A stretch of 64,000 nucleotides of DNA from Oscillospiraceae bacterium (GTDB lineage Bacteria; Bacillota; Clostridia; Oscillospirales; JAAYXM01), in NCBI GenBank assembly GCA_015068085.1, contig SVLF01000007.1, positions 1-64,000 on the forward strand. The letters are read 5' to 3'. Shown here piece after piece: positions 21,327 to 37,462 of the stretch. Position 1 is the stretch's first letter; the number at the start of each line of letters is the position of its first letter. A model generated the notes under the pieces. The model did no database searches, was not told the origin of the DNA, and saw nothing but the letters and a program-made list of their open reading frames with translations. The position numbers and the translations under genes are program-made.

Positions 21327-21590
21327 TTACAGCGGCGGTTCTGCCAACGCATCAAGCAGAAATTTTGTTGCAAAGCGTATTCCCTTTTCAAACGCTTTTT
21401 CAGAAGAATATCCACTTAACTCATTTATGTTTTCTTCATATTCTTCCAGCATCGCACGTTGCTCTTCATTGAGAGACGAGATTAGTTTACTGAGACTCGC
21501 CTCTGTTTTTTTCACTGCATCCTGCATTTCGCAGACTCTTTCGTTACGGTTTTCAAACAAATACGTATTCCACAAATCTGAAAGAAACAT
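21327..21590 (-). CDS. small hypothetical protein (DUF6809-like, tentative)
   Basis: 88-codon ORF with strong SD (caggaggtgg) and a structured leader; start trimmed to ATG 21590. Confidence 0.6.
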   Translation of the reverse strand: MFLSDLWNTYLFENRNERVCEMQDAVKKTEASLSKLISSLNEEQRAMLEEYEENINELSGYSSEKAFEKGIRFATKFLLDALAEPPL

Positions 21591-21612: not shown

Positions 21613-21777
21613 AAAAAGTGCGCAGCCGAAGCTACGCACGAAAAATGCATAACTCCGATTTGCTGCGACACAAAGTTTTCTCATAACACAGGTATGTGAA
21701 AATAGAGCATGCATTTTTACCGAAAGGCAAAAAAACACACCAGTGCTATTGAGAAAATATTAACCTTTATGTCGCAG
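21613..21777 (-). ncRNA. candidate structured leader RNA with pseudoknot and terminator
   Basis: closing stem 21777-21765/21675-21663 plus 21757-21750/21683-21676; 10-bp pseudoknot helix 21718-21709/21650-21641; terminator 21639-21613. Confidence 0.6.
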
Positions 21778-21781
21778 TTTT

Positions 21782-21810
21782 ATTTTACCACAGTTTCTTT
21801 CTTTTTGCAA
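21782..21810 (-). promoter_or_regulatory. promoter of leader RNA
   Basis: TTGCAA-N17-TAAAAT on the - strand; predicted TSS falls at the 5' arm of the closing stem. Confidence 0.6.
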
Positions 21811-26347: not shown

Positions 26348-26427
<80 letters not shown>

Positions 26428-27540: not shown

Positions 27541-29466
27541 CTAAAATCTCTCTTTGATTTTCTCTGTTAAATATTCAATAATCTTTCCATATAAAAATCC
27601 CGCAAGTCCTCCACAGAGAATAGTCAAAAGACCGATAGCTATTCCTTTCGCTGTAAATGTCATATAATTATTTTGCACAAAAATAATTACCAACAGAAGT
27701 GCCACATACGGAACACCAAAAACGAGACCCGCAAACACATTGGCAAGAGTTCTTGAAAATGACTCTCTTTGAGATTCAACTTTTCTTTCCAGTGTTTGAT
27801 TTTTCTCAGACACATCCATTTTATCTGTTATAGCTCGACTGAGCTTATCTTTAGTTTTTTGATGTTCTTCCTTTTCTGTTTCATATTTCTTGTCTCCTTC
27901 AAACTGCGCATCCGCCTTAATCTGAACATAAACCTCTCGCCATGTTTGATCAGTAAACTGAGAATAATCCCCCGACGTAGCATCAAGAAGTTTTGTTTCT
28001 ACAATAGGATGTGACCTCAAAAACAAAAATTTCTCTTCCGTTAAGCCTTCCGCCTTTTTTTGATAAGCCTTATCCAAGGAAAGGTTAAAACTGGCAATCA
28101 TTTGAGGCGTAGGACGCAACAAAGCTCTACAATCTGCTAACAACTTAAAACTACTATAGTCGTTATTTTCATCACCATAATCCATCCAAAGAAGAGTACC
28201 AAAAATATCAGCTGTGATACTTGTCGGTATTATACCCTTAGCTGGCTCTTCTTCGCACGCAATATCTTTGCTAACCTTCGCAATTACTCTATTTGTTGTT
28301 ATAAATATAGCCTTTGCAGTTTTAATACTAGTTGATAGTGTTCCTCTTCTTTTTCTTTGAGTCATCACTATTGATCTGACATCCGTTCTAATACTATTGT
28401 CATAAAGTCCTTCAGTAGAATATTTACTATCTCTCTCACTATATTCGTTTTTTATTGCATCGGATATCTTTTCTTCGTCGGCTTGGAATTGATTTTCCTC
28501 TACCAAGTAGCTGGCATCATATCGAGCGATCCCCATAAGGTTAAGCATACCCTCAACTTCACCGATATATTCAACCATTTCCTCAGACGTTTTATCAGAA
28601 TTACGGAAAAACTGTGCCACCTTATTAGCTTTTGCGGGGTCATAGTCATCACGTTGCGCCCATCTCGCCGCGCGCTCCATTATTCCTAACACTTCCTGTA
28701 AGTTATGGTCAAACACAAAGAGAGACATCCCCACTTTCTTCGCTTTTTCAACGATATATTGGTATGCATCTTTTCTTTCAAGCGTATCCATCCCCAAAAG
28801 CGCAAAAATCATAGGAGTGTCTAAGAATACTTGCAAATCAGATTGTTGTGCAGAATCTGTATTTGAATAAAACAAAGTCGCCTTTGCAATATTTGCCATA
28901 CACAAGCCTTCAACAAAAGCGTGTCGTTCAACATCGCGTTCTCTTAAATCCAGAATATATTTACACCAATGATATACGAACTGACTATTTGTAGCGTCTA
29001 TATCCCCAATATGATTAAAAATAACATGGTCATCATAATCATCTAAAAAGGCAGTGATGTTTTTTTCTATTTCTTTTTCATTCAAACTATAATTATGTTT
29101 TTTTGCATATTCGCCAAAATCTGCAATAAGCGTTTTCCACTTACTTAGAAAACCATCGTCTGAAAGACGCAGTTTCCTCATCTCTGAAATATCCGGAACA
29201 TAGCTTCCTTTTACCCTTTTCACCATCTTCCTATCCATAGCTTCACCCAACACCTGTCGAACAAAAGTAGGCTGGAACGTTGCGTTGTATTTTTCTTTCA
29301 ACTTAGAACAAATGATACTTACATCAACAACTTCCATTCCCTCATCAACTATTATAGTTGCTATGAATGGTAAATATTTGTCGAGAATATTCGAAGAAAC
29401 AAAATTACTTTTCATCATCGCATATGCCTTAACAAACTGATCTGTCATCATATGTACCTCCACCAT
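27541..29466 (-). CDS. large PIN-like domain protein with C-terminal transmembrane helices
   Basis: LQVFLDTPMIFALLG (PIN motif 1-like), AKAIFITTNRVIAKV (T/N motif), coiled coil, two hydrophobic segments GLVFGVPYVALLLVIIFV and GIAIGLLTILCGGLAGFLYG. Confidence 0.6.
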   Translation of the reverse strand: MVEVHMMTDQFVKAYAMMKSNFVSSNILDKYLPFIATIIVDEGMEVVDVSIICSKLKEKYNATFQPTFVRQVLGEAMDRKMVKRVKGSYVPDISEMRKLRLSDDGFLSKWKTLIADFGEYAKKHNYSLNEKEIEKNITAFLDDYDDHVIFNHIGDIDATNSQFVYHWCKYILDLRERDVERHAFVEGLCMANIAKATLFYSNTDSAQQSDLQVFLDTPMIFALLGMDTLERKDAYQYIVEKAKKVGMSLFVFDHNLQEVLGIMERAARWAQRDDYDPAKANKVAQFFRNSDKTSEEMVEYIGEVEGMLNLMGIARYDASYLVEENQFQADEEKISDAIKNEYSERDSKYSTEGLYDNSIRTDVRSIVMTQRKRRGTLSTSIKTAKAIFITTNRVIAKVSKDIACEEEPAKGIIPTSITADIFGTLLWMDYGDENNDYSSFKLLADCRALLRPTPQMIASFNLSLDKAYQKKAEGLTEEKFLFLRSHPIVETKLLDATSGDYSQFTDQTWREVYVQIKADAQFEGDKKYETEKEEHQKTKDKLSRAITDKMDVSEKNQTLERKVESQRESFSRTLANVFAGLVFGVPYVALLLVIIFVQNNYMTFTAKGIAIGLLTILCGGLAGFLYGKIIEYLTEKIKERF

Positions 29467-30791: not shown

Positions 30792-30820
30792 TTGATTTAT
30801 TTTCCTAAAAGTGATATAAT
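30792..30820 (+). promoter_or_regulatory. promoter of structured RNA
   Basis: TTGATT-N17-TATAAT; predicted TSS near 30827. Confidence 0.7.
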
Positions 30821-30826
30821 ACAATC

Positions 30827-31049
30827 ACCACATACAACAATTTAATATCAATGACAAGATATTTCTACAAATATCTCTATTTGTGTTACACATTTATATG
30901 ATGTTACACGGCAATATTAAGTTTGTTAAAAACGCAGGCTGAAATATGTTTTGTCGTGTGATATTCATATTAGATTGTTGTGTGTGGTAACCAGTAATCA
31001 AGCCGCGTTTTTGATGCGTGGTGCAGATTTCTGTTGCCACGCATTTTTT
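30827..31049 (+). ncRNA. candidate structured RNA with long closing stem, pseudoknot and terminator
   Basis: 25-nt closing helix 30827-30851/30964-30988 (24 pairs incl. 2 G-U), hairpin 30857-30876, stem 30906-30914/30951-30959, pseudoknot 30928-30940/31001-31012, terminator 31014-31049. Confidence 0.65.
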
Positions 31050-31119
31050 ATTTGCGTGAGACTTTAGAAAGGAGTTCTTTATTCTTAATTTTAATAATCA
31101 TATTGAAAGGTGGCTTGAC

Positions 31120-31266
31120 ATGAAAACAATTAAATTTAAAGAAAGCGATAAAGACTTGATTCAAAGAATCAAAGAATATCAAAATGCACATGGCTTATCA
31201 TCGTTTGTGGCAGCAGTTCGCAAACTATGTGCAGATGCCCTTGCAATAGAGAAAATAAGACATTAA
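31120..31266 (+). CDS. small ribbon-helix-helix-like protein (48 aa)
   Basis: MKTIKFKESDKDLIQRIKEYQNAHGLSSFVAAVRKLCADALAIEKIRH; SD gaaaggtgg; not in the ORF track because of length. Confidence 0.6.
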   Translation: MKTIKFKESDKDLIQRIKEYQNAHGLSSFVAAVRKLCADALAIEKIRH

Positions 31267-31281
31267 AAGGAGAAATATCAA

Positions 31282-32640
31282 ATGAAAAAGAAAATTATAT
31301 CACTTACCCTTAGTGTTGCTATGTTTTTGAGTGTGTTCCCAACAACATTTGCAACGGGAGGCAGTCTCACAAATTTCAAGAAGAAAAACACATATGTTCC
31401 AGGTCAGTTTTCTGACGTTGCTCCTGGTGCATGGTATGAAAATACAGTGGCTTCTGCTTACGAAACCGGACTGATCAAGGGCTCATCCGAAACGAGCTTT
31501 AACCCAAATGGGAACATAACAATGGCAGAATCGCTCGCTTTGGCTTCCAGAATTCATAATATATATAACGGCGGAAGTGGTGAGTTTACCCAAGGATCAC
31601 CATGGTATAAGGTTTACGTTGATTATGTAGTGAAAAACGATATATATGAATTGGCATCACAGCATTCCCATTCACAGTTAAATGCAAATTGGTCGCGTGA
31701 AAATTTTATTAGATGTTTATCAAAAGCAATTCCTGAAGAAGAATTGAACGAAATTAACAGCATTCCGGATGGTTCTATTCCTGATGTTTTTTGGAAAAAT
31801 GATGAAATTTATTCTCTTTATAGAGCAGGAATCATTACCGGTAATGATGAAAAAGGAACGTTCAATGCAAATTCCCCAATCAAGCGCTGTGAAGTAGCAA
31901 CAATTGTTGCGCGGTTGATAGACAAATCGAAGAGAGTAAAGTTTTCCTTGTCCGGTGGTCTTGTGATGCCTGACTCTATCACAATAGAAGAACAAAAAGA
32001 CGCCATTAACATAGGTAACAGAATATATTTGCATGCAACCGTATTACCGGACACTTTACGCACTAACAAGACTTTGGTATGGTCATCCGATAATCCAACG
32101 GTTGCCTCAGTAGATGACGATGGGGATGTAACAGGGTTGACACCTGGAGAAGCAAACATAACCGCGACAACGGTAAACGGACTTTCTTATACAGTACGCG
32201 TTAAGGTAATGGATCTCCGTCCGAAATTTACATATGATTCAGTAAAAGAATTAGCCATAGCATGTTCCGAAGCAGGCGATGCTGGTATCCGAATGTCCAA
32301 CTATCTCTCAGCAGCACTGGATGATCTGCTCGACAGAGAAAACATCTATTTGCGTTATTCTATGATAAAGAAAGAAGCGGAGAGTGTATCATGGGATTTG
32401 ACAACAGCTATCAAAATACTCAAAAAACACGTCCCGGTAAAATTAACAGACGGTAGCACATTGTTGGAGCTGGCTGAAAAGGCTCTTTCAGCCAATGAAA
32501 AAATAATAGCATTAGAAATGACTGAGGACACAGCTATTGAACGTTCTATAGAACTTTACGATTTGGTTAGCGACTATCTTATCCATACTTCAGCTATCAT
32601 AGGCATCGTCGCGGATATGTCAGCCAATGTTGTCAAATAG
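31282..32640 (+). CDS. secreted SLH-domain and Big2 Ig-like protein
   Basis: signal peptide, FSDVAPGAWYENTVASAYETGLIKGSSETSFNPNGNITMAE SLH repeats, WSSDNPTVASVDDDGDVTGLTPGEANITAT Big2. Confidence 0.85.
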   Translation: MKKKIISLTLSVAMFLSVFPTTFATGGSLTNFKKKNTYVPGQFSDVAPGAWYENTVASAYETGLIKGSSETSFNPNGNITMAESLALASRIHNIYNGGSGEFTQGSPWYKVYVDYVVKNDIYELASQHSHSQLNANWSRENFIRCLSKAIPEEELNEINSIPDGSIPDVFWKNDEIYSLYRAGIITGNDEKGTFNANSPIKRCEVATIVARLIDKSKRVKFSLSGGLVMPDSITIEEQKDAINIGNRIYLHATVLPDTLRTNKTLVWSSDNPTVASVDDDGDVTGLTPGEANITATTVNGLSYTVRVKVMDLRPKFTYDSVKELAIACSEAGDAGIRMSNYLSAALDDLLDRENIYLRYSMIKKEAESVSWDLTTAIKILKKHVPVKLTDGSTLLELAEKALSANEKIIALEMTEDTAIERSIELYDLVSDYLIHTSAIIGIVADMSANVVK

Positions 32641-37412: not shown

Positions 37413-37462
37413 AATGGCATTCAAGAGGTCATGGGTTCGATCCCCACCGTCTCCACCAAACA
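37413..37462. repeat. right att repeat (tRNA-Ala 3' part)
   Basis: 50 bp identical to 26378-26427. Confidence 0.95.

Follow-up and report, generated by a model that had tools for sequence, protein, structure and literature searches.

A large unnamed family of riboswitch-like RNAs, probable transcription attenuators, in gut-type Clostridia

Riboswitches that act on transcription consist of a structured 5' leader in which mutually exclusive terminator and antiterminator helices precede a gene, and tandem copies of such leaders occur. T-box leaders (RF00230) likewise set an antiterminator against a terminator and are present in many copies per genome in Bacillota. A similar order of elements, namely a promoter, a structured RNA, an intrinsic terminator and then a gene reached by read-through, is seen in the RCd22-abiF system of C. 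difficile (abiF motif, RF03085; PMC12373285), and ToxI type III antitoxin RNAs are also followed by a terminator and a gene. We analysed a stretch of 64,000 nucleotides (the window) from an Oscillospiraceae bacterium (contig SVLF01000007.1, assembly GCA_015068085.1), in which a new structured RNA with a promoter, a 25-nt closing helix, a pseudoknot or switch and a terminator had been proposed from the sequence alone, and a retron considered unlikely.

Structure of the RNA and its genomic setting

Inspection of the sequence confirmed each element of the original prediction. A TTGATT box (30792-30797) is separated by a 17-nt spacer from TATAAT (30815-30820), which has an extended -10 (TGA), placing +1 at about 30827. 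The arms of the closing helix form 24 of 25 pairs, of which 22 are Watson-Crick and two are G-U on the + strand, with one C.C mismatch. The loop AAAAACGCAGGCT is complementary to AGCCGCGTTTTT (31001-31012) with one bulged A (duplex about -14.4 kcal/mol), and the terminator has a folding energy of -18.5 kcal/mol. The features of this copy (copy 1, large subtype) and of a second copy found in the same window (copy 2, compact subtype) are as follows.

30792-30820 (+), promoter of copy 1, TTGATT-N17-TATAAT with extended -10
30827-31049 (+), copy 1 of the RNA, from transcription start to end of terminator
30827-30851 (+), closing helix P1, 5' arm
30857-30876 (+), inner hairpin
30906-30914 (+), inner stem, 5' arm, pairing with 30951-30959
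30928-30940 (+), strand L, loop AAAAACGCAGGCT, partner of M
30951-30959 (+), inner stem, 3' arm
30964-30988 (+), closing helix P1, 3' arm
30996-31012 (+), strand M, linker AATCAAGCCGCGTTTTT, pairing either with L (pseudoknot) or with T (antiterminator)
31014-31049 (+), intrinsic terminator (5' arm T 31014-31027, T' 31032-31044, U-run)
31054-31074 (+), conserved GCGTGAGACTTTAGAAAGGAG after the terminator, ending in a Shine-Dalgarno-like GGAG
31120-31266 (+), 48-aa ORF directly downstream, no Pfam family, ribbon-helix-helix-like by eye only
31282-32640 (+), exported protein with SLH (1.4e-14) and Big_2 (1.2e-12) domains, probable regulated gene
21782-21810 (-), promoter of copy 2, TTGCAA-N17-TAAAAT
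21613-21775 (-), copy 2 of the RNA
21705-21718 (-), strand L of copy 2, AAAAATGCATGCTC
21641-21657 (-), strand M of copy 2, CGGAGTTATGCATTTTT
21618-21639 (-), terminator hairpin of copy 2
21327-21590 (-), DUF6809 gene directly downstream of copy 2

We then asked if the fold was more stable than expected by chance. The predicted fold of 30827-31052 has a dG of -76.1, against -46.3 +/- 4.5 for dinucleotide shuffles (z -6.66, 0 of 200), whereas the opposite strand is weaker (z -3.54). A search of the 4227 families of Rfam 15 found only a tRNA in the whole window at gathering scores, and a search by E-value gave nothing but noise in the region, with nothing above a gathering score on the RNA.

Copy 1 lies inside an 11-kb integrated element bounded by an exact 50-bp repeat of the tRNA 3' end (att sites, 26378-26427 and 37413-37462), which carries a tyrosine integrase, a resolvase, a WYL regulator and a SprT-like protein. 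A 641-aa protein with C-terminal membrane segments and no Pfam family (27541-29466, minus strand), located beside the WYL regulator, is a possible cargo of the element. Copy 2 lies outside this element, and the RNA is not specific to mobile elements, although most relatives were not examined for mobile context. Blastn of copy 1 against plasmids and phages gave no match. Copy 2 matched no plasmid, but two human faecal phage contigs (MT835845.1:2059-2244 and MT837627.1) carry DNA 76% identical to it. Searches of viral contigs with exact patterns gave only chance matches, most inside apparent coding sequence, or none.

Distribution and conservation of the family

Blastn against whole genomes detected a copy at 77% identity in another species of the genus, copies at 76% in two other families of the order, an 88% relative of one of these, and two more distant copies matching in the 3' part. 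The conserved unit runs from the -35 box to an AGAAAGGAG Shine-Dalgarno behind the terminator, and GCGTGAGACTTTAGAAAGGAG is largely kept in three relatives in other genomes. In close relatives AAAAACGCAGGC within the loop is invariant. Covariation was visible already with six sequences, and the inner hairpin and inner stem are kept with changes on both sides. In the four closest relatives the gene behind the RNA codes for a lipoprotein, of apparently unrelated families. Of the two distant copies, one (locus L060) is followed by a lipoprotein ORF whose expected ATG is out of frame in an A-rich run, indicating a frameshift or an assembly error, while the other (locus L059) was given no gene call. 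Interestingly, loci L022, the WYL-gene relative, and L058 encode lipoproteins that look related, each preceded by an XRE regulator, but the RNA is present in L058 and absent from L022, providing a natural plus/minus pair.

We built a covariance model from six copies, including copy 1 (R1; copy 1 scores 210 bits), and this model found about 18 more distant copies, among them copy 2, which scored 35 bits before it was used in any model. A second model of 13 compact copies (R2), which includes copy 2 and whose score for copy 2 is thus not independent, found the family in 142 of 399 genomes of the order and 99 of 394 genomes of the class. In a sample of 380 genomes of the phylum only the own genome matched. 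Assignment to gut-type Clostridia was inferred from gene content and from the one named relative contig (Bacillota bacterium, goat rectum). These wide searches scored only seven candidates per genome, and when 20 genomes were searched more fully, counts rose to 11 in the own genome and 29 in the richest. Tandem copies also occur, with pairs at L153, L157, L162, L182, L156 and L175 and four in a row at L186 (152-1072, minus strand); where parsed, each unit of the pairs has its own promoter and terminator. The L186 copies include a variant in which strand L reads TAAAGATG/TAAAGGTG and the linker U-run reads TTCTTT, a compensated change of the pseudoknot. No copy tested matched Rfam, either by E-value (six loci) or at gathering scores (twenty more).

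Parsing of 134-135 copies showed a common anatomy. A strong promoter (mostly TTGACA/TTTACA/TTGCAA, a 17-nt spacer and TATAAT/TATACT) ends 4-6 nt before the closing helix in most copies, so that transcription should start at P1, and the promoter score is at least 9 in 121 of 135 copies. This is followed by P1, an inner helix, a hairpin whose 3' strand is L (consensus AAAAAYGCANGCTY), the P1 3' arm, linker M ending in a U-run, and the terminator. On the 97-copy alignment (96 distinct aligned sequences), 98.9% of cells in P1 and the terminator stem are paired and 15 of 17 pairs show changes on both sides; 0 of 500 shuffles reached this and slid controls collapsed, although the alignment was fitted to the model. 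An RNAalifold consensus of the compact set missed the inner helices because MAFFT misaligned the U-rich strand.

Competing pairings and the genes behind them

The original prediction allowed for a pseudoknot or a switch, and comparison across the family revealed a third competing strand in the terminator. Over 134 copies, cognate M fits cognate L (-15.4 against -11.7 kcal/mol, z -16.5) and cognate T (-19.1 against -15.1 kcal/mol, z -16.1) far better than those of other copies, with 0 of 5000 permutations as good. These permutations do not model the relatedness of the copies, but the control pair L:T, which should not form, showed nothing (z -0.6). Two of three individual L:M columns examined change together beyond permutation; for L7:M-2, with 88 G-C and 16 A-U, 110 of 114 are paired against at most 104 in permutations, while L8:M-3 alone was within the permutation range (105 against a maximum of 106). 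L is also complementary to the U-rich strand just 5' of it (z -7.4). Terminator and antiterminator are nearly balanced (medians -14.8 and -14.5 kcal/mol), while shuffled linkers reach only -7.3 kcal/mol. In copy 1 the antiterminator is about GCCGCG:CGUGGU plus AAUC:GAUU (-11.7 kcal/mol), weaker than that of copy 2 (-17.3 kcal/mol). No consistent similarity was seen by eye between P1 and the terminator, and an antiterminator formed by P1 was therefore not retained.

We next examined the genes following the RNA. A same-strand gene with a Shine-Dalgarno lies within 150 nt of 75 of 96 copies with enough flank, against 21 of 96 on the divergent side and 24% of random windows; a looser rule gave 109 of 124. 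Some copies have no clear gene behind them, though several of these keep, by our reading, a Shine-Dalgarno remnant. Of 108 downstream proteins, 23 match BspA-type LRR_5, 6 Cu_amine_oxidN1, 6 MazE/AbrB-like, 3 DUF6273, 3 DUF6809 and 2 SLH. An N-terminal hydrophobic segment, judged by a crude hydropathy rule, is seen in 57% of them against 35% of other ORFs of the same loci (Fisher P 0.0008), indicating enrichment for exported proteins.

Taken together, these results suggest with reasonable confidence that the RNA is a cis-acting transcription attenuator, a riboswitch-like leader of a new class. In this model P1 and the inner stem hold L in place, and M, as it emerges, can pair with L, which leaves T free to form the terminator. 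Summed, this OFF conformation is favoured by about 10 kcal/mol before any pseudoknot penalty, and we infer that termination is probably the default. If L is kept from M, for example by the local hairpin with the U-rich strand or by a bound ligand or protein, M could instead pair with T, the terminator could not form, and RNA polymerase would read on into the gene behind. In the absence of expression or probing data, the existence of transcripts, regulated read-through, the direction of switching and the signal, which is unknown, remain inferences, as does the mutual exclusion of the conformers, which follows from the shared strand T but was not measured.

Alternative explanations and relation to known RNAs

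The strongest alternative, though unlikely, is a stand-alone, trans-acting small RNA or RNA antitoxin with a leaky terminator, similar to RCd22 upstream of abiF or ToxI upstream of toxN. A promoter that starts transcription exactly at the closing helix, a strong terminator, the tandem autonomous units (which are odd for a pure attenuator) and the few copies without a clear gene would fit this view. However, the downstream proteins share no single function and are not one toxin family, including LRR surface proteins, Cu_amine_oxidN1, lipoproteins and DUFs with only scattered weak PADLOC hits, and the M:T pairing, which an antitoxin would not need, is conserved. RF03085 did not match, and neither an Abi family nor a ToxN-like gene was seen among the Pfam families of downstream proteins that were examined; nor are there the repeats of a short pseudoknot found in ToxI. 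A selfish, MITE-like promoter-RNA-terminator unit appears less likely still. High copy number, tandem copies, varied neighbourhoods, the copy in an integrated element and the phage-contig DNA speak for mobility, but copies in one genome are strongly diverged (the best full-length pair in G685, one of the genomes searched, is about 86% identical), making a recent burst unlikely, and the alternative pairings and the placement before genes are under clear constraint.

Ribosome-mediated attenuation by a leader peptide would account for the terminator and antiterminator arrangement, as in amino-acid operon leaders, but is improbable, since the transcript starts inside the closing helix with no room for a Shine-Dalgarno and start codon, the linker varies between 19 and 24 nt in most copies so that no reading frame is kept, and L often has ACG where others have ATG. 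A retron msr-msd RNA or another guide RNA, suggested only by the long closing helix with inner hairpins, is the most remote possibility, in agreement, as far as a retron is concerned, with the original prediction: no reverse transcriptase or nuclease was found nearby, the conserved region includes the linker and terminator, and copies precede unrelated genes. With respect to T-box leaders, there was no RF00230 match, no amino-acid genes were seen, and the loop GG is not constant, so no rule of pairing with the tRNA end applies. In contrast to transcription-terminating riboswitches in general, the core matches no Rfam riboswitch, most copies carry their own tightly placed promoter, no ligand is known, and the genes are mostly surface or unknown proteins rather than one pathway.

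This family, present in a quarter to a third of sampled genomes of this class, has no Rfam entry, and we found no description of it in the open-access literature searched, although a fragment may be among the thousands of unnamed candidate RNAs from human microbiomes listed in the supplements of Fremin and Bhatt (PMC8040213), which could not be searched. It is possible, but somewhat less likely than not, that the RNA is a ligand- or protein-sensing riboregulator restricted to one class of Bacillota, which uses exchange between the pseudoknot strand, the linker and the terminator arm to control up to about 30 transcription units per genome, largely for surface and exported proteins, in answer to one shared signal. 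Even if the signal is a protein or RNA, the three-strand exchange with balanced energies is a clean natural switch. If this is a riboswitch class with one signal, finding that signal would expose a shared control system for surface proteins of gut Clostridia.
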